Positions 43,074-57,921 of a stretch of 64,000 nucleotides of DNA are shown here, one piece after another. Position 1 is the first letter of the stretch. Every line of letters begins with the position of its first letter. Under the pieces are notes generated by a model that saw nothing but the letters and a program-made list of their open reading frames with translations, had not been told where the DNA came from and did no database searches. The position numbers were made by a program, and so were the translations under genes. This DNA comes from Tyzzerella sp. An114 (GTDB taxonomy: Bacteria > Bacillota > Clostridia > Lachnospirales > Anaerotignaceae): assembly GCF_002161055.1 (NCBI RefSeq), contig NZ_NFLT01000005.1, positions 124,001-188,000 of the forward strand. The letters run 5' to 3'.

Positions 43074-43106
43074 AAAAACCTCTGATATTTTATCAGAGGT
43101 TTTTAA
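43074..43106. terminator. Intrinsic terminator between gdhA and the VOC gene
   Basis: AAAAACCTCTGAT pairs with ATCAGAGGTTTTT around ATTTT, between convergent genes. Confidence 0.92.
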
Positions 43107-43509: not shown

Positions 43510-45129
43510 TTATTTATGTTCGTGGTGGTCGTGACCACAATCGCAGTCGTGATGATGGTGATGTTCGTGACCACAGTCGCAATCATGGTGATGATGATGT
43601 TCATGACCACAGTTACAATCATGGTGGTGATGATGTTCGTGACCACAATCGCAATCATGGTGATGATAATCCATTAATCCCCAATCTTCATCTTTTTCTT
43701 CTTCTGTTCTGTAATCATAACCATTGTCTGTAAATACCATTCCCGCTTTATCTACAATAAGAACTTTGTGTTCAAAATCAGGAGTATTTTCCATAGCTTC
43801 TCTTATAAGATTTATAGCCTCATCAACAGTAAATGCAGGTGGAAGTGATGAGAGAAGTAATTGCATTGAAAGTTTTCTTATTTTTGAAGGAAGTTTTGCA
43901 AAGTATTCTCTCATTGTGTTTATAAATTCATCAAATACTTTGTTTTTAAATTCCATACTTGCAGGAGGAAGATTTGTATCTATGTTAAAGTTGAATATTT
44001 CATCATTTATATCTCCATAGTACATACTTCTAACAAAGCTATCGCTCATAATACTTTTTGCTGTCTCATCAGAGAGATTTTCAAAAGAACCTACTTTCTC
44101 AATTATTTTAAGTTCTTCAGCACTTAAAGCGTTAGCCTTATCAATTATAGGTTCAAAAGCATTTTCAAGTCTTTCATTTAATGTGTCTGTGAAAGCTAAA
44201 GCTGTTTCAGAGTCTGTCTCTCCTGTTAATATTTCACATACAGAGTGATAAAGGTCACTGTACTCAAAATTATTTTCTGTAAGTTCATCAAATGTATATG
44301 ATGTATAGAAAAGTATTATGAGAGAGTTTATATCGTTGAACATCTGAGCAAAATAATCTTCAATTTTGTTAAGTGTGTCAAATACAGCGTTGAAATCTGT
44401 ATATTCCTCATCAAGTTCCTCATCACTTAATTTTTCAGATACAATATTTTTCTTTTCTGCAAGCCACTGTGCAAGCTCTGGGAAATATTTCCCGTAAGTT
44501 TCTTGATTTTCAGGGGCACAGGCAGACTCTATTGTTCTTAAAGCATTTTTAATTGACTCCTCAGACTCACCACTGAAAGCTATATTGAGAGACTCTTTTA
44601 TAATATCAAAATATTTTTCTCTAGCCATTTTCAGAGGTATACATTTTAAAAGCTGTCCCATAAAGTTTTTCTGTTGTACAGGATTTTCAGCTGTTGTTAA
44701 GAACTGTACACAGTCATTGTAAAACATATCAAATTCAATTTTTTTATCTGATACATTATCTTCACGATATTTTCTTACAGCTACTTCATCAGTTACAGGA
44801 GATGAATAAATTCCCCATGAAGCAAAATATCTATATATATTTTCATATATTTTTACTATTGATTTTTTTATATCTAAACAATCATCAAGAGAGGCTTTTA
44901 TAAACTCTTTGTCACCGTTTAATATATCCTCAAGTTTAACAATATAGTGTTTTATACCGTCTTTTATCTCTATAATGTCAGAATGAATTTCATAAGGTAT
45001 TTCGTTTTCGTCTCTTTCCATATCTTCTATGGCACTCATAAGTATAAGTAAAAGACTTCCTACAGCTTCGTTATATACATAGTCAGCAGATATTTTTTTA
45101 AGTCTTTCTTCTGTTTTTATATCAACCAT
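43510..45129 (-). CDS. Large unknown protein with His/Cys-rich metal-binding tail
   Basis: A 539-residue acidic, mainly helical protein with no signal peptide or transmembrane segment. Residues about 1-470 match no domain I recognise. The last 51 residues (489-539) hold 25 His and 8 Cys, arranged as four 12-residue units of DCDCGHEHHHHH type (the second has DCNCG, the last is DCDCGHDHHEHK). Such tails bind Ni, Zn, Co or Cu in metallochaperones and storage proteins. The gene is divergent from the cobalamin operon 113 nt away, which makes cobalt a reasonable guess. Its ATG follows GGAGAT-type sequence. Confidence 0.75.
   Translation of the reverse strand: MVDIKTEERLKKISADYVYNEAVGSLLLILMSAIEDMERDENEIPYEIHSDIIEIKDGIKHYIVKLEDILNGDKEFIKASLDDCLDIKKSIVKIYENIYRYFASWGIYSSPVTDEVAVRKYREDNVSDKKIEFDMFYNDCVQFLTTAENPVQQKNFMGQLLKCIPLKMAREKYFDIIKESLNIAFSGESEESIKNALRTIESACAPENQETYGKYFPELAQWLAEKKNIVSEKLSDEELDEEYTDFNAVFDTLNKIEDYFAQMFNDINSLIILFYTSYTFDELTENNFEYSDLYHSVCEILTGETDSETALAFTDTLNERLENAFEPIIDKANALSAEELKIIEKVGSFENLSDETAKSIMSDSFVRSMYYGDINDEIFNFNIDTNLPPASMEFKNKVFDEFINTMREYFAKLPSKIRKLSMQLLLSSLPPAFTVDEAINLIREAMENTPDFEHKVLIVDKAGMVFTDNGYDYRTEEEKDEDWGLMDYHHHDCDCGHEHHHHHDCNCGHEHHHHHDCDCGHEHHHHHDCDCGHDHHEHK
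43513..43665 (-). repeat. 36-bp tandem coding repeat (His/Cys tail)
   Basis: Four near-identical 36-bp units encode the HHHDCDCGHEHH-type tail. The units differ mainly by third-position changes (tcg/tca, cgt/tca) and one D-to-N codon, consistent with expansion by slippage or unequal crossing over under selection for the protein. Confidence 0.9.
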
Positions 45130-45157: not shown

Positions 45158-45186
45158 TTGTTTTTTAGATTACAATATATTATAAT
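45158..45186 (+). promoter_or_regulatory. Promoter of the cobalamin operon
   Basis: TTGTTT at 45158-45163 and TATAAT at 45181-45186, 17-bp spacer, about 55 nt before cobQ. The leader is too short to hold a cobalamin riboswitch and no B12-box sequence is visible. Confidence 0.6.
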
Positions 45187-45242
45187 TCAATATGAATTTA
45201 ATAACAATATAAACATTTTAATATATAAATCGGAGAAATGGT

Positions 45243-46724
45243 ATGAAAAACAAAAGTATAATGCTTCAAGGTACAGCTTCAAATGTGGGAAAAAGTCTTT
45301 TGTGTACAGCTCTTTGTAGAATATTTACAGAGGACGGATATAATGTAAATCCTTTCAAATCACAAAATATGTCCCTTAATTCCTATATAACACCGGAAGG
45401 AGGGGAAATGGGTAGGGCACAGGTTGCACAGGCTGAGGCTTGCCATAAACTGCCCCATACAGACATGAACCCTATACTCTTAAAACCTTCCACAGATAAA
45501 AAATCCCAAATAATATTAAATGGAAAAGTTTTTGATAGTATGAATGCTATGGACTATTTTAAGTTTAAACCTAACTTAAAACCTGAAATAGAGAAAACAT
45601 ATAAAAGATTACTTGATAAAAGTGATATTGTAGTTCTTGAGGGTGCAGGAAGTCCGGCAGAAATAAATCTTAAGGATAATGATATTGTAAATATGGGTAT
45701 GGCTGAAATAGCTAACTCTCCTGTAATACTTGTAGGCGATATAGATAAGGGGGGAGTTTTTGCTTCTCTTGTGGGAACAATAATGCTTTTAACTCCTGAG
45801 GAGAGAAAGAGAGTAAAAGGTATAATAATAAATAAGTTTAGAGGAGATGTGTCTCTTTTAGAGCCGGGACTTGTTCAGATTGAGGAGATAACAAAAGTTC
45901 CTGTTATAGGTGTTGTTCCTATGGTTGATGTTGATATAGATGACGAGGACAGCGAAGCGGATTTCCTTAAATATTCAAAAAATAAAAATGGTAATATTGA
46001 CATAGCTGTAATAAAATTGCCATATATTTCTAATTTTACTGATATAAATGCTCTTGCTCTTGAAAAAAATGTCAATATAAGATTTGTAAATAGTTGTGAG
46101 GAATTGGAAAAACCTGATATAATAATACTTCCGGGAACAAAAAGCACTATGAATGCCCTTGAGTTTTTAAGGGAAAAAGGTCTTTTTTATGAAATAAAAA
46201 AAGCTCATAATGAAGGTGCTTTTGTTTTTGGAATATGTGGTGGTTATCAGCTTATGGGTAAAACTATAAATGATGAAAACTCTGTTGAAAGTGATATTAA
46301 AACTATGGAAGGTTTAGGACTTCTTAATATTCATACATATTTTGAAAATGAAAAGAAAACTGTTCTTTCTGAGGGTAAAGAGAGTCTTTTTGGTTTAAAT
46401 GTAAAGGGTTATGAAATTCATATGGGTACAGAGAAAAAAGGAGATAATGTTAAATCCTTTATAAATACAGAATATGGCTTTGAAGGTGCTGTAAGCAGTG
46501 ATAAAAGAGCTGTAGGAACATATTTCCATGGTATTTTTGATAATGGTGTATTTACAAGAAAATATGTAAACATGGTTAGAAGGTCAAAAAATATTGAGGA
46601 ATATAATGGGGATATTGTTAATTTCTCAGACTATAAAGAAAGCCAGTATACTAAACTTGCAAATATAGTGAGAAATAGTATTGATATTGATAAAATATAC
46701 AAAATATTGGAGGAAGACCTTTGA
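45243..46724 (+). CDS. cobQ: Cobyric acid synthase CobQ/CbiP
   Basis: A 493-residue glutamine-dependent amidase that converts adenosyl-cobyrinic acid a,c-diamide to cobyric acid. The N-terminal synthetase half has LQGTASNVGKSL and NPFKSQNMSLNS; the C-terminal glutaminase half has the nucleophile Cys in GICGGYQLMG and the His in YFHGIFDN. It is the first gene of the cobalamin operon and is also known as cbiP in the anaerobic pathway. It overlaps cbiB by 4 nt. Confidence 0.96.
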   Translation: MKNKSIMLQGTASNVGKSLLCTALCRIFTEDGYNVNPFKSQNMSLNSYITPEGGEMGRAQVAQAEACHKLPHTDMNPILLKPSTDKKSQIILNGKVFDSMNAMDYFKFKPNLKPEIEKTYKRLLDKSDIVVLEGAGSPAEINLKDNDIVNMGMAEIANSPVILVGDIDKGGVFASLVGTIMLLTPEERKRVKGIIINKFRGDVSLLEPGLVQIEEITKVPVIGVVPMVDVDIDDEDSEADFLKYSKNKNGNIDIAVIKLPYISNFTDINALALEKNVNIRFVNSCEELEKPDIIILPGTKSTMNALEFLREKGLFYEIKKAHNEGAFVFGICGGYQLMGKTINDENSVESDIKTMEGLGLLNIHTYFENEKKTVLSEGKESLFGLNVKGYEIHMGTEKKGDNVKSFINTEYGFEGAVSSDKRAVGTYFHGIFDNGVFTRKYVNMVRRSKNIEEYNGDIVNFSDYKESQYTKLANIVRNSIDIDKIYKILEEDL

Positions 46725-47662
46725 TAAAAATAGTAATAGCACTTATTATTGATAGGATTTTAGGTGACCCATACAGTTATCCCCACCCTGTAAAGTATAT
46801 GGGAAAACTTATATCATTCCTTGATAATAATATGAGAAAAATTTTTAAAACACCAAAAGGACTTAAATTTGCAGGATTTTTGACTGTTATAATAACAGTT
46901 TCTGTTTCTTTTGGTGTTTCATACGGTTTAATATATGGTTTTAATAGAGTAAACGATATACTTGGAGATATTGTTGAAATAATACTTATATGGAATTGTA
47001 TAGCTTTAAGATGTCTTGATAAAGAGATTATAAAAATATATAACTCTCTTAAAGAAAGAGATATTGAAAAGGCGAGACAGCAAGTTTCATATCTTGTGAG
47101 TCGCGATACAAATTGTCTTGATGAAAAAGGCATTGTTAAGGCAGCTGTTGAGACAGCGGCGGAAAATATAACTGACGGTATAATATCACCACTTTTTTAT
47201 ATTATGATAGGCGGTGCACCTTTAGGAATTGCCTATAAAGCTGTAAATACCCTTGATTCTATGATAGGATATAAAAACGATAAATACATTGATTTTGGTT
47301 TCTTTGGTGCAAAACTTGATGATGTAGCTAATTTTATACCGGCAAGACTTACAGGTTTTGCTATGGTGATTTTTGCTTTTATAACAGGTAAAGACTATAA
47401 AAATGGTTATAGAATAATGATGAGAGACCATAAAAAAAGTAAAAGTCCCAATGCCGGCTGGACAGAAAGTGTTGTTGCTGGTGTAATGGGTATTGAGCTT
47501 TGTGGACCTACTGTGTATTTTAATAAAACTGTCTATAAAGATACAATAGGGGATAATATAAATGAAATAAATTATGAATATATTAAGACAACAACAGACT
47601 TTATGTATGGTGCAACACTTATTGTTGTGACTATGGGAATTATTGTTGCTTTTTTAATTTAA
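46721..47662 (+). CDS. cbiB: Adenosylcobinamide-phosphate synthase CbiB
   Basis: A 313-residue membrane protein that attaches aminopropanol (phosphate) to cobyric acid. Family phrases are DRILGDPYSYPHPVKYMG at the N-terminus, AVETAAENITDGIISPLFY and SPNAGWTESVVAGVMG. About five hydrophobic segments are present. The start is TTG at 46721, inside TTGATA overlapping the cobQ stop, with TTGGAGGA upstream. Confidence 0.95.
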   Translation: MIKIVIALIIDRILGDPYSYPHPVKYMGKLISFLDNNMRKIFKTPKGLKFAGFLTVIITVSVSFGVSYGLIYGFNRVNDILGDIVEIILIWNCIALRCLDKEIIKIYNSLKERDIEKARQQVSYLVSRDTNCLDEKGIVKAAVETAAENITDGIISPLFYIMIGGAPLGIAYKAVNTLDSMIGYKNDKYIDFGFFGAKLDDVANFIPARLTGFAMVIFAFITGKDYKNGYRIMMRDHKKSKSPNAGWTESVVAGVMGIELCGPTVYFNKTVYKDTIGDNINEINYEYIKTTTDFMYGATLIVVTMGIIVAFLI

Positions 47663-47675
47663 AGGATTGATTTTT

Positions 47676-48746
47676 ATGAATTTTCACGGTGGAAATATAT
47701 ATGATTATGATAATGAAATTATAGATTTCAGTTCAAATATAAACCCTTTAGGTGTTTCGGAAAAACTTAAATATGAGATTTCAAAAAGAATTGATGAGGT
47801 ATCAAAATATCCTGATATAAAATACTCAAAACTTAAAAGTAATATATCAAAATACCTTAATGTTGATAAAAGTAATATTACTGTGGGAAATGGTGCTGTT
47901 GATATTATATATAGAGCTGTAATCTGTTTACCACAAAAAAAGGCTTTTATTATGGCTCCGGCTTTTTCAGAGTATAGAAAGGCTTGTGAAATATCAAATA
48001 AGGAATATTTTGAGATACCTTCTTTTGATTTTGATAAAAATTATTTTGATATAGATTTTTTTAAAAGTAAAATAGAGGATAATTCAATTATAATAATATG
48101 TAATCCCAACAATCCAACAGGAGTTGGAATTAAAAATACTGATATTGAAAGTATAGTTGAAATTTCAGAAAAAAAAGGAAATTTTATAATTATAGATGAA
48201 GCCTTTATGGAGTTTACCTGTGATGAAGCAAAATTCTCTTTTATTTCAAATATAAAAAAATATAATAATGTTTTGATTATAAGAGCTGTGACAAAATTTT
48301 TCGGTCTTCCGGGAATAAGGCTTGGATATGGAATAAGTAGTAATTATAAATTAAATGAAAAAATGGAGTATTTCTCAAAGCCTTGGGATATAAATACATT
48401 TGCTGTTATCGCCTCAGATGTTATTTTTAATGATATTGATTATATTGAAAAATCTAAAAAATGGATTATTGATGAGAGAGAATTTATTTATAATTCTCTT
48501 TCAAATGAAAATAATATACACATATATAAATCAGACTCAAATTTCTTTTTGATTAAAACAAATAAAAATTCAAAATATATTAGAGATGAACTTTTGAAAC
48601 ATAATATATTAATAAGAATACCTGAAGGTTTTACAGGTCTTTTTGATAATTTTATACGTATTGCAGTTAAAGACAGGGAAAGTAATATAAAAATTATAAA
48701 TGCATTGAGGAGTGAAAGCCTTTGGATAGAGAAGGAAGAATTATAG
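47676..48746 (+). CDS. cobD: L-threonine-O-3-phosphate decarboxylase CobD
   Basis: A 356-residue PLP enzyme of the class I aminotransferase fold that makes aminopropanol phosphate for CbiB. It starts MNFHGGNIYDYDN, typical of CobD, and has IDFSSNINPLG, the NPNNPTG loop and the PLP-binding Lys in RAVTKFFGLPGIRLGYG. The frame allows a TTG at 47667, but the ATG at 47676 follows AAAGGA and matches the family start. It overlaps the next gene by 25 nt. Confidence 0.92.
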   Translation: MNFHGGNIYDYDNEIIDFSSNINPLGVSEKLKYEISKRIDEVSKYPDIKYSKLKSNISKYLNVDKSNITVGNGAVDIIYRAVICLPQKKAFIMAPAFSEYRKACEISNKEYFEIPSFDFDKNYFDIDFFKSKIEDNSIIIICNPNNPTGVGIKNTDIESIVEISEKKGNFIIIDEAFMEFTCDEAKFSFISNIKKYNNVLIIRAVTKFFGLPGIRLGYGISSNYKLNEKMEYFSKPWDINTFAVIASDVIFNDIDYIEKSKKWIIDEREFIYNSLSNENNIHIYKSDSNFFLIKTNKNSKYIRDELLKHNILIRIPEGFTGLFDNFIRIAVKDRESNIKIINALRSESLWIEKEEL

Positions 48747-49255
48747 TTCTTACAGGTGATGGAAAGGGAAAGACAACATCAGCTTTAGGAATGGCTATGA
48801 GAGGACTTGGCTGGGGTAGAAAAGTATGTATACTCCAGTTTTTTAAATCTTTGGATTATGATTGCGGAGAGAGAATATTTCTTGAAAAATTAGGTTGTGA
48901 GATATACCCTTTAGGTATAGGCTTTTCTTGGCTTAAAAGCGAAAAAGAACAGAGAGAGGCTTTGAAAAAGGCTTGGGATATGTCTCTTTTAAAACTTTCC
49001 GATGATTATGATATGGTAATACTTGATGAGATTATAAATGTTTTTTCACAGAAAAATATTAATATAGATGATATACTCACAGAAAAAATGCTTTCTGATA
49101 CAGTTAAAAAATATAGTTTAAATAAAGATATAATACTTACAGGTAGAGGCTGTCCAAAATCTATAATTGATATAGCTGATACAGTAACTGAAATGGTTAA
49201 TATAAAACATGGATATGAAAAGGGCATAAAAGCCTGTAAGGGTGTAGAGTTTTAG
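48722..49255 (+). CDS. cobO: Cob(I)yrinic acid a,c-diamide adenosyltransferase (CobO/BtuR type)
   Basis: A 177-residue P-loop enzyme that adds the adenosyl ligand to the corrinoid cobalt. The nucleotide-binding motif GDGKGKTTSALGMAMRG is at the N-terminus, followed by WGRKVCILQFFKS and DMVILDEIINV. The start is TTG at 48722 within the end of cobD, preceded by GAGGAG. It lies between cobD and cbiA. Confidence 0.93.
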   Translation: MDREGRIIVLTGDGKGKTTSALGMAMRGLGWGRKVCILQFFKSLDYDCGERIFLEKLGCEIYPLGIGFSWLKSEKEQREALKKAWDMSLLKLSDDYDMVILDEIINVFSQKNINIDDILTEKMLSDTVKKYSLNKDIILTGRGCPKSIIDIADTVTEMVNIKHGYEKGIKACKGVEF

Positions 49256-49263
49256 GAGGAATT

Positions 49264-50628
49264 ATGAAAGTACCAAGATTTGTTATAGCTGGTACAAACA
49301 GTGGTTGCGGAAAAACCACAATTACATCAGCACTTATTTCAGCACTTAAAAAAAGAGGTATGCAGGTACAACCCTTTAAAATGGGACCTGATTATATAGA
49401 TACAATGTTTCATAGTTTTATAGCAGAGTGTGACGGAAGGAATATAGACTCATTTCTTTTTGATGATGATACATTTAGATATATTTTTCAAAAAAATAGC
49501 GAGGAAGCCGATATAGCTGTATGTGAAGGTGTTATGGGAATGTATGACGGAATAGGAAAAACATCTAATTCCAGTACAGCCGAAATGTCAAAGATTATAG
49601 ATGCTCCCGTTATAATGGTTGTAAATGCAAAGGGAATGGCTGTAAGTGCTGCGGCTATGGTTAAAGGGTTTATTGAATTTGATAAAACTGTAAATGTTTG
49701 TGGTGTTATACTCAATAATGTTAAATCTGAAACACAGTATGTATTTTTAAAAAGCATAATAGAGGAACACACAGACACAGAAGTTTTAGGATATTTACAG
49801 GAAAATGAAAAAATTAAAATAGGAAGTAGACATTTAGGTCTTATTACAGCTAGAGAAGTATCAAGACTTGAAAAGAAAATGGATATTTTAGCTGATGAAG
49901 CTGAAAGAACTATTGATATTGATAGAATACTTGAAATTGCAGAAAATGCATCTGATTTAAAATTTAAAAATATACTTTCAAAGGATTTGAAAGATAAATT
50001 TAAGGGGCTTAGAGTAGGAATTGCCTATGATATGGCTTTCAATTTCTATTATCGTGATAATATAGATTTTCTTAATTATCTTGGAATTGAGACAGAATTT
50101 TTCTCACCTTTAAAAGATTACAGAATACCTAAAAATATTGATGCTCTTTATATAGGTGGAGGGTATCCCGAACTTTTCCCTGTGGAGCTTACGAACAATA
50201 TTTCAATGAGAAATTCAATAAAACAGTTTGCCGAAAAAGGCGGATATATATATGCAGAGTGTGGCGGTCTTATATATATGAGTGAGAAAATAAAAACTTT
50301 TGACGGAAATGAATACAGTATGACAGGAGTTTTAAAGGGTAGCTGTAAAATGGGAGATAAGCTCCGTCATTTTGGATATGTTGAGCTTAAAGATAGAGAA
50401 ACAGAAATGGAAATTAAAGGTCATGAGTTCCACTATTCTATTGAAAATATAAGAAATAGAACACTTTTTGAGGTTTCAAAAACACGAGGAAATAGGAAAA
50501 CTGTTTGGAGAAGTGGCTATAATTATAAAAATGTTATAGCTTCTTATCCACATATACATTTTTATTCTAATATGGATTTTGTTATAAAATTTATAGAGAA
50601 AGCTATTAAGGAGGTAAAGAATGCTTGA
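49264..50628 (+). CDS. cbiA: Cobyrinic acid a,c-diamide synthase CbiA
   Basis: A 454-residue glutamine-dependent amidotransferase that amidates the a and c side chains of cobyrinate. The N-terminal ATP-binding half has IAGTNSGCGKTTITSALI and PFKMGPDYIDTMFH; the glutaminase half has the Cys in YAECGGLIYMSE and the C-terminal His in SYPHIHFYSN. GGAGG precedes the ATG. It overlaps cbiC by 8 nt. Confidence 0.95.
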   Translation: MKVPRFVIAGTNSGCGKTTITSALISALKKRGMQVQPFKMGPDYIDTMFHSFIAECDGRNIDSFLFDDDTFRYIFQKNSEEADIAVCEGVMGMYDGIGKTSNSSTAEMSKIIDAPVIMVVNAKGMAVSAAAMVKGFIEFDKTVNVCGVILNNVKSETQYVFLKSIIEEHTDTEVLGYLQENEKIKIGSRHLGLITAREVSRLEKKMDILADEAERTIDIDRILEIAENASDLKFKNILSKDLKDKFKGLRVGIAYDMAFNFYYRDNIDFLNYLGIETEFFSPLKDYRIPKNIDALYIGGGYPELFPVELTNNISMRNSIKQFAEKGGYIYAECGGLIYMSEKIKTFDGNEYSMTGVLKGSCKMGDKLRHFGYVELKDRETEMEIKGHEFHYSIENIRNRTLFEVSKTRGNRKTVWRSGYNYKNVIASYPHIHFYSNMDFVIKFIEKAIKEVKNA

Positions 50629-51268
50629 AAAAATAGAAATGATATCACCTTCAGATATTGAAAATAGAAGTTTTCAGATAATATCAGAGGAGCTTGGAGA
50701 TAAAAAATTTCCGCCTTTCTGTGAAAATATAGTAAAAAGAGTTATACATACAACAGCAGACTTTGATTATGCCGAAAATCTTTATATAAGTGAAAATGCT
50801 GTGGGAAAAGGTCTCAAAGCATTACAATCCGGTTGTACAATAGTTACAGACACAACAATGGCTCTTTCTGGCATAAATAAAAGAGTTTTATCATCTCTTG
50901 GAGGAAGTGTTAAGTGTTTTATAGCTGATGAAGATGTAAAGGAAGAAGCTAAAAAAAGAGGAATAACTCGTTCTGCTGTGGCTGTTGAGAAGGCTTCTAA
51001 AGACAAAAATATAAAAATATATGTTGTTGGAAATGCTCCAACAGCTTTAATAAGTCTTTATGACCTTATAAAAGAGGGAAAAATGGAAGTTCCAGACCTT
51101 GTTGTTGGAGTTCCTGTGGGATTTGTAAATGTTGTAGAGAGCAAGGAGCTTTTTGTAAACAGCGAGATACCTTGTATAATTGCCAGAGGAAGAAAAGGCG
51201 GAAGTAATGTGGCGGCAGCTATAATAAATGCCCTTCTTTATATTGTTTCAGAAAACAGGAGGGACTGA
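50621..51268 (+). CDS. cbiC: Cobalt-precorrin-8 methylmutase CbiC
   Basis: A 215-residue enzyme that moves a methyl group from C-11 to C-12 of the corrin ring. Family landmarks are SDIENRSFQII near the N-terminus, the active-site His in RVIHTTADFDYA, DTTMALSGINKR and a C-terminal PCIIARGRKGGSNVAAAIINALL. AGGAGGT precedes the ATG inside the end of cbiA. The stop is 1 nt before the cbiD start. Confidence 0.95.
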   Translation: MLEKIEMISPSDIENRSFQIISEELGDKKFPPFCENIVKRVIHTTADFDYAENLYISENAVGKGLKALQSGCTIVTDTTMALSGINKRVLSSLGGSVKCFIADEDVKEEAKKRGITRSAVAVEKASKDKNIKIYVVGNAPTALISLYDLIKEGKMEVPDLVVGVPVGFVNVVESKELFVNSEIPCIIARGRKGGSNVAAAIINALLYIVSENRRD

Positions 51269-51269
51269 T

Positions 51270-52376
51270 TTGTTAAAATCTTTGTATACAGAGATAGCCG
51301 GCAAAAAATACAGATTAGGCTATACAACAGGTACTTGCAGTGCAGCGGCAGCTATGGCAGCTGTAATGCTTTTTGAAGGCAAAAAAAGTGAAAGTGTTGT
51401 AATAAATACTCCTTATGGAATTGATGTTGAAATAGATATAATATACAGTGAAAAAAATAATAATTATGCTGTCTGTGGTGTTGTTAAAGATGGCGGCGAT
51501 GATTACGATGTTACAAGTGGTATAAAAATATATGCAAAAGCCCAATTGACAGAGGGTGAAACCTTTGTGACAGGCGGAGAGGGAATAGGTATTGTAACAA
51601 AAAAAGGTCTTAAATGTAATGTGGGAGAATATGCAATAAATCCTGAACCTATAAAAATGATTAAAAAAGCTGTGTCTAGTGTATCAGATAAAAATTATAA
51701 AATAACTATATATGCCCCTGAAGGTGTTGATATAGCTAAAAAAACATTTAATCCACGTTTAGGCATTCAGGGAGGTATATCTATAATAGGAACAACTGGC
51801 ATAGTTACTCCTATGTCTGAGGAGGCTTGGAAAGAGTCCTGTTCCTATGAACTTTCTGTCAAAAAAGCCAGTGGCAAAAAAAGTGTTTGTTTTGTATTTG
51901 GAAATTATGGTGAAGTTTTTGCTACAAAATATTTAGGAATAAATAAGGATTGTATCGTATCTATAAGTAATTTTGTTGGTTATATGCTTGATACTGCTTT
52001 AAATATGGCTTTTGATAATGTTCTCATTGTAGGACATACAGGAAAACTTATTAAAGTTGCAGCAGGTATATTTCATACCCATAGTAAAGTTGCTGACGGC
52101 AGAATGGAAACATTATGTACTCTTGTAGCTTTAGAGGGTGGAGATTATGAAGTCATAGAAAAAATATATAACTGTAATACCACAGATATGGCAGAAAAAA
52201 TACTTAAAGATAGTAATTTGTCTCATATATGGCAGAAAGCCTGTGAAATAGCCAAAAAGAAGTGTTGTGACAGAATTTTTAATAAAATGAATGTAGGCTG
52301 TATTATGTTTAATAATGAAAATGAGATACTTGGAAAAAGTAAAAACTGGTCTTATATTATAAATGAACTGAGGTAG
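51270..52376 (+). CDS. cbiD: Cobalt-precorrin-5B C1-methyltransferase CbiD
   Basis: A 368-residue protein of the CbiD family, which methylates C-1 in the anaerobic pathway. It has LGYTTGTCSAAAAMAA at the N-terminus, then EGVDIAKKTFNPRLGIQGGISIIGTTG and GHTGKLIKVAAGIFHTHSKVADGR. The frame is open to 51228 inside cbiC, but AGGAGG lies just before the TTG at 51270, which is chosen. This gene marks the oxygen-independent route. Confidence 0.93.
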   Translation: MLKSLYTEIAGKKYRLGYTTGTCSAAAAMAAVMLFEGKKSESVVINTPYGIDVEIDIIYSEKNNNYAVCGVVKDGGDDYDVTSGIKIYAKAQLTEGETFVTGGEGIGIVTKKGLKCNVGEYAINPEPIKMIKKAVSSVSDKNYKITIYAPEGVDIAKKTFNPRLGIQGGISIIGTTGIVTPMSEEAWKESCSYELSVKKASGKKSVCFVFGNYGEVFATKYLGINKDCIVSISNFVGYMLDTALNMAFDNVLIVGHTGKLIKVAAGIFHTHSKVADGRMETLCTLVALEGGDYEVIEKIYNCNTTDMAEKILKDSNLSHIWQKACEIAKKKCCDRIFNKMNVGCIMFNNENEILGKSKNWSYIINELR

Positions 52377-52379
52377 AAT

Positions 52380-53594
52380 ATGAATAAAGTTTATATAATA
52401 GGAATGGGCACAGGTGACGAAAGTCTTTTGACTTTTAAAGCTGTAAAAGTCATTGAAGATTGTGATGTTTTGATAGGCGGAAAACGTCATATTGAAAACT
52501 TTAAAAATAAAGAAAAAATTGAAATTAAAAATAATCTTTCTGATATTGTAAAATACATAAATGAAAATAAAGATACAAAAAAAATTGCAGTTCTTGCCAG
52601 TGGAGACCCTTTTATGTATGGTATAGGTTCTTATATAATTAAAAATGTTAAAAATGCAGTTTTTGAAAATATAAGTGGTATATCATCTGTACAGTATATG
52701 GCAGGAAAATGTGGTATACCATGGCAAGATATGTATATTGGAAGTGTTCATGGAAGAAATGAAAATATTTCTTCTCTTATATCAAACCATAAAAAATTGG
52801 CTCTTTTGACTGCTAAAAACACAAAAGAAGTTATAAAAGAAATTTATGACAATGGTTTTGATGATGTGTACATATATGTTGGTGAAAATCTTTCTTATGA
52901 TAATGAGAGAATAACAGCAGGCTTTGCAGAGGATTTGATTTATAATGAATTTTCAGACCTTTCAGTTATGATTATATTAAATAATAATGAAAAGCCTTAT
53001 AAATTCATATCCGGCGGAATACCTGATGAAATGTTTAAAAGAGGGAATGTTCCTATGACAAAAGAGGAAGTTCGCTCTGTATCGTTGTCAAAATTAAAAC
53101 TTTTGGAAGATAGTATTGTTTTTGATATAGGTTCTGGAACAGGCTCTGTAACTGTTGAGTGTGGTTTAATGGCGAAGTTTGGAAAAGTTTATGGCTTTGA
53201 AAAAAATAGTGAGGCTGTTGAACTTACAAAATCAAATATAAAAAGATTTGGTGTTTATAACTGTGAAGTTATAGAGGGAGATGCTCTTGAAAGTATAAAA
53301 AATATTGATGTAGTGCCTTCAAGAGTTTTTATAGGTGGCACAGGTGGAAATATGAATGATATTTTGAATGTTATTTACGATAAATGCCAAAATGTAAAAG
53401 TTGTTATAAATTGCATAGCTGTTGAGAGTATTTATGAGGCTTTGAAAGGTCTTGAAAATATAGGATATAACAACATTGAGTGTGTTTCTGTTTCAGTTTC
53501 AAGAAATAAAAAAGCTGGAAGCAAAAATATGATGATAGGACAGAATACCGTATATATTATAAGCGGTGAGAAGGGAGACATAAGTGAAAGGTAA
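52380..53594 (+). CDS. cbiET: Fused cobalt-precorrin-7 C5-methyltransferase / precorrin-6Y C15-methyltransferase (CbiET)
   Basis: A 404-residue bifunctional enzyme. Residues about 1-205 are a CbiE-type tetrapyrrole methylase (IIGMGTGDESLLTFKA, then VLASGDPFMYGIG). Residues about 210-404 are CbiT, a class I SAM methyltransferase with decarboxylase role (IPDEMFKRGNVPMTKEEVR and the SAM loop VFDIGSGTGSVTVE). The two are separate genes in some species and fused as CobL in others. It overlaps cbiL by 11 nt. Confidence 0.94.
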   Translation: MNKVYIIGMGTGDESLLTFKAVKVIEDCDVLIGGKRHIENFKNKEKIEIKNNLSDIVKYINENKDTKKIAVLASGDPFMYGIGSYIIKNVKNAVFENISGISSVQYMAGKCGIPWQDMYIGSVHGRNENISSLISNHKKLALLTAKNTKEVIKEIYDNGFDDVYIYVGENLSYDNERITAGFAEDLIYNEFSDLSVMIILNNNEKPYKFISGGIPDEMFKRGNVPMTKEEVRSVSLSKLKLLEDSIVFDIGSGTGSVTVECGLMAKFGKVYGFEKNSEAVELTKSNIKRFGVYNCEVIEGDALESIKNIDVVPSRVFIGGTGGNMNDILNVIYDKCQNVKVVINCIAVESIYEALKGLENIGYNNIECVSVSVSRNKKAGSKNMMIGQNTVYIISGEKGDISER

Positions 53595-54279
53595 ATTTTA
53601 TGGTGTGGGAGTAGGTCCGGGAGACCCTGAACTTATAACACTTAAAGCAATTAATGTACTTAAAAAATGTGATTGTGTTGTAATTCCAAAGGCTGAAGGT
53701 CGTGACAGCACAGTTTTTAAAATAGCGAAGGAATATATAAACAAAGATACTGAAATCTGTGAAGTTTCATTTTCAATGGTAAAAGATAGTGAAAAAAGAC
53801 AGAAAAGTCGTGAGGAAGCAGCTTACACTATATCAAAACATATTGATATGGGAAAAAATGTTGTTTTTATAACTCTTGGCGATATTTCTGTTTATAGCAC
53901 TTGTATGTATGTATATAAAATATTAGTTGAAAAAGGTTATGATTGTGAGCTTATTCCGGGAGTTCCTTCATTCTGTGCCGTTGCCTCAAAGGTTGGAGAA
54001 AGTTTGGGAGAAGATGGAGAAAGTTTTGGAATAGTTCCTTCAGCATTGGGAATAGAAAAGCTTTCTAAAGCTGCTAAAAATTTTGATACAGTTGTAATTA
54101 TGAAATCAGCTAAAAATATTGATACAGTTAAAGAGATACTTAAAGAAGAAGGTTTTGATAATGTAAAAGGTGTTATGAACTGTGGTCTTGAAAATGAAAG
54201 AGTTTTTATGAACAATGATGATATAGAAGGCGACCTTGGATATTTTACAACACTTATAGCAAAAAGAGGTGGAAAATAA
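53584..54279 (+). CDS. cbiL: Cobalt-factor II C20-methyltransferase CbiL
   Basis: A 231-residue tetrapyrrole methylase. The N-terminal GVGVGPGDPELITLKAINVL block, TLGDISVYST and PGVPSFCAVASKVGES are typical of CbiL/CobI, the C-20 enzyme that commits precorrin-2 to cobalamin. The start is GTG at 53584, preceded by AGAAGGGAG inside cbiET. The stop TAA shares its last A with the cbiF ATG. Confidence 0.94.
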   Translation: MKGKFYGVGVGPGDPELITLKAINVLKKCDCVVIPKAEGRDSTVFKIAKEYINKDTEICEVSFSMVKDSEKRQKSREEAAYTISKHIDMGKNVVFITLGDISVYSTCMYVYKILVEKGYDCELIPGVPSFCAVASKVGESLGEDGESFGIVPSALGIEKLSKAAKNFDTVVIMKSAKNIDTVKEILKEEGFDNVKGVMNCGLENERVFMNNDDIEGDLGYFTTLIAKRGGK

Positions 54280-55022
54280 TGGTTTATATAGTAGGTGCAG
54301 GACCAGGAGATACAGAGCTTATAACTGTTAAGGGACTTAAAAGAGTTGAAAGTGCTGATATTATAATATATGCAGGTTCTCTTGTTAATCCTGAAATATT
54401 AAAATATGCAAAAAAAGACTGTGAGATACATAACAGTGCATATATGAACCTTGAAGAAGTTATTGATGTTATAAAAAAAGGTCATAGTGAGGGAAAAGAC
54501 ATTGTGAGACTTCACACAGGTGACCCTTCAATATATGGAGCTGTTCGTGAGCAGATGGATATTTTAAAAGAAAATAATATACCTTTTGAAAACATACCAG
54601 GAGTAAGTTCTTTTTGTGGTGCTGCCTCAGCTTTACAAGCAGAATACACATTGCCTAGTGTATCACAGACAGTAATATTGACAAGAATGGAAGGAAGAAC
54701 AGCTGTACCAGAAAAAGAGAGTATTGAAAGTTTATCTAAACATAATGCTACTATGATTATATTTTTAAGTGTTGGAATGATTAGCGAACTTTCAAAAAAA
54801 CTTATGGAAGGCTATTCAAAGGATACACCAGCAGCAGTTGTATATAAAGCTACATGGGAAGATGAAAAAATTGTAAGAGGAACACTTGCTGATATAGCAG
54901 AAAAAACAGAGAAAGCCGGCATTAAAAAAACAGCCCTTGTTATAGTTGGAAATTGTCTTGGAAATGATTACGAGCTTTCAAAACTCTATGACAAGAATTT
55001 TAAAACAGAATTTAGGGGATAA
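54279..55022 (+). CDS. cbiF: Cobalt-precorrin-4 C11-methyltransferase CbiF
   Basis: A 247-residue tetrapyrrole methylase. Family landmarks are IVGAGPGDTELITVKG, IIYAGSLVNPEIL, RLHTGDPSIYGAVREQM and PGVSSFCGAASALQAEYTLP, the set seen in CbiF/CobM. The start overlaps the cbiL stop by 1 nt and the stop is 1 nt before cbiG, so translation is coupled. Confidence 0.95.
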   Translation: MVYIVGAGPGDTELITVKGLKRVESADIIIYAGSLVNPEILKYAKKDCEIHNSAYMNLEEVIDVIKKGHSEGKDIVRLHTGDPSIYGAVREQMDILKENNIPFENIPGVSSFCGAASALQAEYTLPSVSQTVILTRMEGRTAVPEKESIESLSKHNATMIIFLSVGMISELSKKLMEGYSKDTPAAVVYKATWEDEKIVRGTLADIAEKTEKAGIKKTALVIVGNCLGNDYELSKLYDKNFKTEFRG

Positions 55023-55023
55023 T

Positions 55024-55995
55024 ATGAATACAGCAGTTTTTTATATTACTGATAATGGCAAAAAAACAGCTCTTAAAATTTCTGAAAAAATAGAATGTGA
55101 TGTTTTTGATAAAGAAAGTCTTAAAAATATTAAATTCTATTTTGATAATTATGACTCTTTAATTTTTATTATGGCAACGGGAATTGTTGTTAGAAAAATT
55201 GCTGAGTTTTTGAAAAGTAAAAAGACAGACCCCGCAGTTATTGTTTGCGATGATAAAGGAAAATTTGCTATAAGCCTTCTTTCCGGTCATATAGGGGGAG
55301 CTAACGAAATAGCTATAAAAATTGCTGAAATACTTGGTGGAACTCCTGTTATAACAACATCAACTGATGTAAATGAAAAAATAGCCTTTGATGTGTTTGC
55401 TAAAAAAAATAATCTTTATATAAAAAATATAGAGAATATAAAATATGTAAGTGGTGACATTGTAAATGGAAAAAATGTTGGGCTTTTTTCTGATGTTGAT
55501 ATAAAAGGGAATATTCCTAAATATATTATTGAAAATAAAAAATGTGAAAGTAATGTTTTTATAACAGCTTTAAAAAAGGATATAGACAAAAGAGATGTTT
55601 GTCTTGTGCCTAAAAAATATATTTTAGGTATAGGTTGTAAAAAAAATACACCTTTTTGTAACATAAATAATGCTGTCTATGATTTTTTGAAAAATATTGA
55701 TGTTAAATCAATAAAAGCTGTAACATCAATAGATTTAAAAAAGAACGAAAAGGGTATAATTGATTTTTGTAATAATGAAAATATTGATTTTATAACATTT
55801 ACATCAAAAGAACTTGAAAAAGTAGAGGGAGAATTTTCAAAATCGGATTTTGTACTTAAAACAACAGGGGTTTCAAACGTATGTGAGAGAAGTATAAAAT
55901 GTTTTGATGAAAATGCTGTCATTATAAAAAATAAAACTATATATAAAGGTATTACTCTTGCATTGGGAGAGATTGACTTTGTATGTAGATTTTAA
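55024..55995 (+). CDS. cbiG: Cobalt-precorrin-5A hydrolase CbiG
   Basis: A 323-residue protein that opens the delta-lactone ring and releases the C-20 fragment as acetaldehyde. Landmarks are IFIMATGIVVRKIA-type text, AISLLSGHIGGANEIA, PVITTSTDVNEK and the C-terminal GIGCKKNTPF. The frame is open back to 54946 inside cbiF, but the ATG at 55024 follows AGGGGAT and gives the normal start. It is CbiG alone, with no CbiH fused, and it is the last corrin gene of the operon. Confidence 0.93.
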   Translation: MNTAVFYITDNGKKTALKISEKIECDVFDKESLKNIKFYFDNYDSLIFIMATGIVVRKIAEFLKSKKTDPAVIVCDDKGKFAISLLSGHIGGANEIAIKIAEILGGTPVITTSTDVNEKIAFDVFAKKNNLYIKNIENIKYVSGDIVNGKNVGLFSDVDIKGNIPKYIIENKKCESNVFITALKKDIDKRDVCLVPKKYILGIGCKKNTPFCNINNAVYDFLKNIDVKSIKAVTSIDLKKNEKGIIDFCNNENIDFITFTSKELEKVEGEFSKSDFVLKTTGVSNVCERSIKCFDENAVIIKNKTIYKGITLALGEIDFVCRF

Positions 55996-56007: not shown

Positions 56008-56721
56008 ATGGTATATAATGAAACTGTTAAGGCGGTATTTAAAAGCCGCCCTAATAGATTTATAGCGAATGTTATATTAAATGGCAAAGATGAAACTGTT
56101 CATGTTAAAAATACAGGAAGATGTAAAGAGCTTCTTTTGGAGGGAGCTACTGTTATACTAGAAAAGAGCAATAATCCCAACAGAAAAACAGCCTATTCAC
56201 TTATAGCTGTATATAAAGGCGATAATATTGTCAATATGGACTCTCAAGCTCCCAATGAGATTTTTGCTGACGCTATTTCTTCTGGAAAAATTGAAGAAAT
56301 AGGAGAAGTTGATTTTGTCAAGAGAGAAGTAAAATATAAAAATTCAAGATTTGATATATATTACGAAAAAAATGGCAAAAAAGGATTTGTTGAAGTTAAG
56401 GGAGTTACCCTTGAAGAAAATGGATTGGCGAAATTTCCAGATGCACCAACGGAGAGGGGCACAAAGCATATTTTAGAGCTTATGGAGGCTAAAAAAGAAG
56501 GTTATGAAACTTCTATTGCCTTTGTTGTGCAGATGAAAGGCGTTAAATCTTTTACACCTCATAAGGAGAGAGACAAAAAGTTTTATGATGCTCTTTATAA
56601 GGCTTATAATGAGGGTGTAAATATACTCTTATATGATTGTAATGTTTCTGAAAATTCCATTGATATAGATAAAAAATATATGGCGGTGTTATATTTTAAT
56701 ATCCTTAAAAATATATTATAA
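56008..56721 (+). CDS. sfsA: SfsA family protein (sugar fermentation stimulation)
   Basis: A 237-residue protein. Landmarks are FKSRPNRFIANVILNGK with an OB-like N-terminal region, HVKNTGRCKELLLEGA, a nuclease-like core (RFDIYYEKNGKKGFVEVKGVTL) and FPDAPTERGTKHILEL. The Asp/Glu-Val-Lys pattern suggests a PD-(D/E)XK-type nuclease fold; the cellular role is uncertain. It starts 12 nt after cbiG with AAAGGA and no terminator between, so it is probably read through from the cobalamin operon. Confidence 0.92.
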   Translation: MVYNETVKAVFKSRPNRFIANVILNGKDETVHVKNTGRCKELLLEGATVILEKSNNPNRKTAYSLIAVYKGDNIVNMDSQAPNEIFADAISSGKIEEIGEVDFVKREVKYKNSRFDIYYEKNGKKGFVEVKGVTLEENGLAKFPDAPTERGTKHILELMEAKKEGYETSIAFVVQMKGVKSFTPHKERDKKFYDALYKAYNEGVNILLYDCNVSENSIDIDKKYMAVLYFNILKNIL

Positions 56722-56748
56722 CAATAATATATATGAGGGGACTTTGAT

Positions 56749-57921
56749 TTGAAGGATATTTTAAAAAAAACAACTGCCTTTTTTATTGCTATTATTTTGA
56801 TGTTATCAAATATCTCCTGTGTTTTTGCTGAAGATAATGCAAATTTGGGACTTACTTCAAAAAGCTATGTTCTTATGGAAGAAAGCACAGGAAATGTTCT
56901 TGTTGAAGGTAACAGCCATGAAAAATTGCCTCCTGCCAGTGTTACAAAGGTTATGACTTTACTTTTGATATTTGAGGCTTTGGAACAAGGGAAAATTAAA
57001 TATGATGACATGGTTACAGTGAGTAGTCATGCAGCCAGTATGGGAGGAAGTCAAGTTTTTTTGGAAGAAGGGGAAACTCAAACTGTAAAAGATATGATAA
57101 AATGTATATCAATAGCCTCTGCCAATGATGCTTCTGTTGCTATGGCTGAGTTTTTGGGAGGTAGTGAGGAAGGCTTTGTTCAGATGATGAATGATAGGGC
57201 TAAGGAATTAGGAATGAATGACACAAATTTTGTAAATGCCTGTGGTCTTGACGTCGACGGTCATGTTACATCAGCCTATGATATAGCTGTTATGTCGAGA
57301 GAGCTTATTAAAAATCATCCTGAAATAAAAGAGTATTCCACAACATGGCAGGACACAATAGTACATAAAACAAGAAAAGGTGAAAATGAGTTTGGGCTTA
57401 CAAATACAAATAAACTCATAAAACAGTACAGCAAAGCCACAGGACTTAAAACAGGAAGTACGGGAAAGGCTTTGTACTGCCTTTCTGCCACTGCTGAAAA
57501 TGAAAACATAAAACTTATAGCTGTAATAATGGCAGCTCCAGACCCTACAACGAGATTTAATGAAGCGGTTAAACTTCTTGATTATGGTTTTGCAAATTAT
57601 GGCATAGAACAGGCAGGAAAAAAAGGTGATATTGTGGCGGAAGTTCCTATTTATAAGGGAAGTGAAAAAACTGTAAGAGGAAAGACTGCTGAAGATGTAA
57701 GTATACTTATTAAAAAAGGTGAAGATGCCAAAATAGAGACAAAAACAGAGACTATTCCAAATATTACAGCTCCTATAAATGAAGGAGATAAAATAGGTGA
57801 GATTGTATATATTGCAGATGGAAAAGAACAGGGAAGATGTGATATAGTAGCGGAAAACTCTGTTGATAAAATAAATATCAGTGAAATGATGATGAGATTG
57901 CTTTCAATATGGTGTAGATAA
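56749..57921 (+). CDS. D-alanyl-D-alanine carboxypeptidase (DacF-like)
   Basis: A 390-residue penicillin-binding protein of the S11 class, exported by an N-terminal signal (about 1-27, ending CVFAED). The catalytic motifs are Ser64-Val-Thr-Lys67 (PASVTK), SAN in IASANDAS and KTG in LKTGSTG. A C-terminal beta domain and a final amphipathic segment follow. It removes the last D-Ala of peptidoglycan stem peptides. The start is TTG at 56749 after GAGGGGA. It is 27 nt after sfsA; the neighbour spoIVB is convergent. A sporulation role is possible. Confidence 0.92.
   Translation: MKDILKKTTAFFIAIILMLSNISCVFAEDNANLGLTSKSYVLMEESTGNVLVEGNSHEKLPPASVTKVMTLLLIFEALEQGKIKYDDMVTVSSHAASMGGSQVFLEEGETQTVKDMIKCISIASANDASVAMAEFLGGSEEGFVQMMNDRAKELGMNDTNFVNACGLDVDGHVTSAYDIAVMSRELIKNHPEIKEYSTTWQDTIVHKTRKGENEFGLTNTNKLIKQYSKATGLKTGSTGKALYCLSATAENENIKLIAVIMAAPDPTTRFNEAVKLLDYGFANYGIEQAGKKGDIVAEVPIYKGSEKTVRGKTAEDVSILIKKGEDAKIETKTETIPNITAPINEGDKIGEIVYIADGKEQGRCDIVAENSVDKINISEMMMRLLSIWCR

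Follow-up and report, generated by a model that had tools for sequence, protein, structure and literature searches.

A His/Cys-tailed protein encoded beside glyoxalase I in Tyzzerella sp. An114 and its relatives: a candidate metal buffer on an unnamed scaffold

Organization of the locus

The window, i.e., the whole 64,000-nucleotide stretch of Tyzzerella sp. An114 DNA analyzed here, contains a gene for a 539-residue protein with a His/Cys-rich C-terminus (the tail protein), followed by a co-directional glyoxalase I gene that starts 23 bp after its stop codon (Table 1). The first-pass annotation, made without database searches, had described an open reading frame ending in four 12-residue units, with 25 His and 8 Cys in 51 residues, and its divergence from cobQ. 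Both observations were confirmed, the two genes lying on opposite strands with 113 bp between their start codons; the glyoxalase I gene had not been mentioned. A strong terminator-like hairpin is situated between the glyoxalase I gene and a convergent glutamate dehydrogenase gene. Together with the promoter-like site upstream of the tail gene, which comes from a scan whose count of such sites was not above that in shuffled sequences, the hairpin fits a predicted two-gene transcript. A search against Rfam found no riboswitch of any kind in the window, a cobalamin riboswitch included, and none near 15 homologs, and riboswitch control was discarded.

Table 1. Features of the tail protein locus and its surroundings, in window coordinates
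Feature	Position	Strand	Basis or remark
Tail protein gene, 539 aa, ATG start	43510..45129	-	ORF; no family match; homologs in relatives
Helical body, residues 1-486 of the tail protein			
His/Cys tail, residues 489-539	43513..43665	-	Four 12-residue units, 36-bp DNA repeat
Glyoxalase I (VOC family), 122 aa	43118..43486	-	Pfam Glyoxalase 1.5e-13; PDB glyoxalase I matches
Promoter-like site 5' of the tail gene (TTGTTA-17-TATAAT)	45179..45207	-	Consensus scan only
Bidirectional terminator-like hairpin	43074..43104	.	14-bp stem and T tract
Cobalamin operon, cobQ first, divergent neighbor	45243..55995	+	Judged outside the functional unit by neighborhood comparison
cobQ	45243-46724	+	PRK00784, E=1.5e-190
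sfsA and dacF-type (D-Ala-D-Ala carboxypeptidase) genes	56008..57921	+	Directly 3' of the cob operon; sfsA starts at 56008, dacF at 56749

The His/Cys tail

The last 51 residues of the tail protein consist of HHH, DCDCGHEHHHHH, DCNCGHEHHHHH, DCDCGHEHHHHH and DCDCGHDHHEHK, in that order, and the four units follow the pattern D-C-x-C-G-H-[DE]-H. The remainder of the protein contains 4 His and 5 Cys. At the DNA level, the tail is a tandem repeat of 3.9 copies with 86% matches.

Among homologs of the same family, a C-terminal His/Cys tail with a CxCGH[DE]HH flavor was present in 32 of the 34 that could be assessed, a 35th (G003) being excluded as it runs off its contig; the number of units varies widely, down to a single one in some genomes. 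The pattern TGYGGNCAYGANCAYCAY, a DNA motif for CGH[DE]HH, was detected in 35 of the 58 family genomes and always at the tail gene locus, matches being assigned to that gene by their position beside the homolog or the glyoxalase gene; the reversed pattern gave no match in the same 58 genomes. Since the motif is restricted to the tail gene, the tail is not a product of chance, and judged from sequence it is real and selected. As it occurs in independent assemblies and in many genera, a repeat or assembly artifact was rejected. The earlier proposal that the tail binds transition metals thus gains support from composition and conservation.

Exceptions to the typical form were also observed. The tails of G046 and G124 carry His with almost no Cys, and in G009 the tail has been lost in every frame, so a hidden frameshifted version was dismissed; loss of the tail (G009, G015) has left the body conserved. 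The G012 homolog (L044 9091-10875) possesses a much longer tail built on a different repeat, CDHGHHEHHH, with ~65 His in its last 120 residues. Outside the family, tails were found in all 15 loci of f12, both of f17, all four of f24 (including two short ones) and some of those of f2; loci from f4, f5, f6, f15, f21 and f22 had none.

The body and its family

Neither the query nor its homologs matched a convincing Pfam or NCBIfam family above the curated cut-off, which bears out the earlier remark that the body belongs to no recognized family. A PDB profile search with the body gave nothing credible, and candidate identities from Pfam, NCBIfam and PDB profiles were rejected as weak and mutually inconsistent. 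AlphaFold modeling of the body from three sequences predicted helices, at a pLDDT (37.5) too low for a usable structure. In a single profile-profile comparison, residues 1-235 matched residues 236-475 with a probability of 94% (E 3e-8), which suggests that the body is probably an ancient internal duplication.

The family is single-copy, unnamed and found mostly in one order of Clostridia. One homolog per genome was identified in 36 of 36 same-family genomes tried and in 45 of the 46 genomes of a larger sample; across the order the body family occurs in 140 of 295 genomes, and outside it in 6 genomes of a class-wide sample of 291. Viral contigs yielded no relative of the tail protein. In f4, f6, f21 and f22, tail-less homologs reside in a conserved row with a protein of ~105 aa and two further homologous genes, which we take to be homologs of DUF2953 and GerW/YtfJ-type proteins. 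Hence the body does not have to rely on the tail in every lineage, and the row may serve as a lead to its original function. A membrane-like protein of ~230 aa is often also present in this row (L127-L139, e.g., L127 3227-7284).

The glyoxalase I partner

Glyoxalase I is a metal-containing enzyme by which toxic methylglyoxal is removed. The best solved relatives of the partner are glyoxalase I enzymes, including those of E. coli (1F9Z) and P. aeruginosa (4MTQ). Its putative metal ligands H7, E56, H75 and E117 are invariant in 22 family sequences and align with the His, Glu, His and Glu of 1F9Z that we take to be the ligands of the E. coli enzyme. By similarity, length and these four ligands, the partner fits the short bacterial (Ni/Co) GlxI class. 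The short forms of ~120 aa constitute the Ni-activated class (PMC5412262), and in Clostridium acetobutylicum Ni or Co activates GlxI and Zn, bound tightly in the wrong geometry, inactivates it (PMC4192464). This characterized clostridial counterpart needs octahedral Ni or Co; for the enzyme encoded here, whose short length fits the Ni class, a Ni/Co-dependent isomerase activity on hemithioacetal may be expected.

The variability of the gene pair was assessed by comparing glyoxalase I positions with tail gene positions across the family. Glyoxalase I is present in 48 of 58 genomes, and where both genes could be placed it is immediately downstream of the tail gene in 42 of 47; one radical-SAM gene intervenes in two genomes (G001, G002), glyoxalase I is located elsewhere in three (G015, G029, G288), and G304 could not be judged. 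The pair spans 11 genera with a gap of 12-42 bp (median 21, 24 family loci). Glyoxalase I is the most conserved neighbor of the tail gene, the next being sfsA, adjacent in 8 of 34 loci. Outside the family, tailed homologs do not adjoin glyoxalase I. In the single-contig genome G261, a second, disrupted copy of the tail gene with a partial glyoxalase gene was detected at one genome end, and the intact tail gene and glyoxalase are near the other (G261:C1:2197-4020 and 2913534-2915447); the disrupted copy may stem from overlap in the assembly and not from a duplication.

The cobalamin operon and metal enzymes of the genome

The first-pass annotation had suggested that the tail protein may buffer or chaperone cobalt destined for corrin synthesis, in an organism whose chelatase gene is elsewhere. 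A CbiK gene was indeed identified elsewhere in the genome (G000:C78:9495-10256, E=9e-96), but the corrin role itself was not upheld by the relatives, where adjacency to cobQ and co-occurrence with it both fail. The tail gene stands beside cobQ in the window's genus only (1 of 17 genera), and cobQ exceeds its cut-off in 27 of 58 family genomes, compared with 45 of 46 for the tail gene; near-complete genomes with the tail protein and without cobQ include G030, G011, G027, G035, G161, G010 and G023. The first-pass annotation had named the lack of a link to cobalamin genes in related genomes as part of what would count against it, and this lack was observed with one exception: in three other genera (g2, g6, g11), the tail gene has a lone cobA-type adenosyltransferase gene as its upstream neighbor. 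The upstream side is otherwise occupied by sfsA, dacF and rubrerythrin genes, sfsA and dacF lying directly upstream in many relatives. In the window the cob operon lies between the tail gene and these usual neighbors and hence looks like a later arrival. In the simplest reading of this gene order, the cob genes ended up, or were put together, in the interval that separates the tail gene from its older neighbors, and the tail gene appears to face the operon only by accident of position. In view of co-occurrence and gene order, cobalt supply for corrin synthesis was not retained as the main role.

The genome of Tyzzerella sp. An114 (G000) also encodes a complete urease cluster, ureABCEFGD (contig C24, L158 2295-7276), and a CbiMQO uptake system; together with CbiK, these point to a cell that deals with Ni as well as Co. 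The urease cluster has no counterpart in two congeners searched, and elsewhere in the family a strong match occurs only in G005. A NiFe hydrogenase match was obtained in five genomes and none in the Tyzzerella sp. An114 genome. Given these distributions, urease and NiFe hydrogenase were both discarded as general clients. The CbiK gene follows a gene for a P-type metal ATPase with heavy-metal domains on the same strand (region L160 2569-6263).

Possible role and alternative explanations

Considering that the tail gene forms a two-gene unit with glyoxalase I in nearly all relatives, buffering of Ni, Co or Zn for GlxI and for the cell appears the most likely function. We tentatively propose, with somewhat less than even confidence, that the tail protein is a SlyD-like metal buffer or metallochaperone on a new scaffold, co-expressed with a Ni/Co client GlxI. 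The protein would be cytosolic and combine a two-lobed helical scaffold with a flexible C-terminal tail, whose DCxCGH[DE]HHHHH repeats would reversibly bind several divalent ions (Ni, Co and probably Zn). Predicted to be co-transcribed with the GlxI gene, it could keep a local reserve of Ni or Co, or soak up competing Zn, and thereby favor correct metallation of GlxI; other metal enzymes would probably be helped too, such as urease in this strain. A more specific version seems to us rather doubtful: the tail protein would be a dedicated GlxI metallation factor, its scaffold having no relation to SlyD, HypB or UreE, and the two genes would form a module that keeps a Ni/Co glyoxalase active while the cytosol is rich in zinc.

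Several observations run against a link to GlxI, and in other bacteria GlxI is not known to require a dedicated chaperone. G009 is tail-less, yet its glyoxalase I gene is still 23 bp downstream; six genomes (G004, G005, G007, G017, G018, G019) have a tailed protein and no glyoxalase I ortholog; and the pair is absent outside the family. These cases make a general buffer and a body-based function real rivals. According to the former, the tail protein is a metallothionein-like store or detoxifier of Zn or mixed metals with no dedicated client, and glyoxalase I is merely co-expressed with it, e.g., in a shared response to electrophile or metal stress. This would account for tails retained in genomes that have no glyoxalase I ortholog, urease or NiFe hydrogenase and, in G007, no cobQ either (an assembly only 84% complete), as well as for tails in other families with unrelated neighbors, and clusters of CxC and His bind both Zn and Ni. 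It leaves unexplained why glyoxalase I alone has been kept within 12-42 bp across 11 genera when the other neighbors changed, and we consider it somewhat unlikely, if by no means negligible. The body may alternatively have a conserved cellular function of its own, the tail being an accessory that some lineages have acquired for sensing metal or as a regulatory switch, as the gene row around the tail-less homologs and the retention of the body in G009 and G015 would suggest. However, the presence of tails in several families, with many changes in repeat number, points to direct selection for metal capacity, and no partner within the family indicates another process, which makes this explanation distinctly unlikely.

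Two further alternatives appear far less plausible. The corrin hypothesis draws on the divergent arrangement with cobQ in the window's genus, the adenosyltransferase gene upstream in three genera and the presence of CbiK and CbiMQO in the same genome; set against the distribution of cobQ and the apparent later arrival of the operon, it is very improbable. Equally hard to credit is a thiol sink, in which the tail cysteines would act directly on methylglyoxal or other electrophiles beside glyoxalase I: the operon with glyoxalase I and the 8 Cys per tail agree with it, but His outnumbers Cys about 3 to 1, the G046 and G124 tails are nearly devoid of Cys, and the CGH-His pattern is more in keeping with metal ligands.

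The delivery of Ni or Co to its proper enzyme when zinc competes is a standing problem, and most metallochaperones known for these metals serve hydrogenase, urease or cobalamin. If the buffering role proposed here is correct, the conserved pairing of a His/Cys-tailed protein with a glyoxalase in gut Clostridia could be used as a simple test system of two genes, and a protein family that is widespread but unnamed would be assigned a function.

Comparison with known metal-handling proteins

In the literature searched, no metal-tailed partner protein of the short bacterial GlxI class was found. Very His-rich metal stores are represented by Hpn and Hpn-like of Helicobacter, which are small and His-rich throughout, whereas the tail protein has a 486-aa body with a short tail. 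HypB and UreE resemble it in carrying a His-rich terminal extension thought to store Ni. They differ in their domains, the tail protein having neither a GTPase nor a UreE domain: the G3E GTPase domain PF02492 is not among its Pfam matches, the genome's clear PF02492 match is UreG, encoded elsewhere, and UreE and UreG are separate genes in the same genome. CbiK and CbiX are cobalt enzymes of corrin synthesis, and some CbiX proteins have His-rich stretches; no chelatase domain is among the Pfam or NCBIfam matches of the tail protein, and CbiK is encoded separately in its own genome. Domain tests thus exclude HypB, UreE, CobW and chelatase identities.

The closest analog of the tail is that of SlyD, a Ni metallochaperone that aids Ni insertion during [NiFe]-hydrogenase maturation in E. 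coli and H. pylori and whose unstructured C-terminus serves as a Ni reserve and, through its His and Cys residues, binds up to 7 Ni (PMC7055735). Both tails are C-terminal, rich in His, Cys, Asp and Glu and variable among homologs, and the protein described here carries a SlyD-type His/Cys-rich tail. It differs from SlyD in its regular 12-residue repeats, in its glyoxalase I partner and in a genome with no NiFe hydrogenase match. SlyD identity itself was rejected, as no FKBP prolyl isomerase domain was found in the body among Pfam matches up to E=1, or among the families listed for 37 homologs up to E=0.1. By analogy, the protein is best described as a putative metal buffer whose His/Cys tail is carried by an unnamed scaffold and whose gene is paired with that of glyoxalase I.
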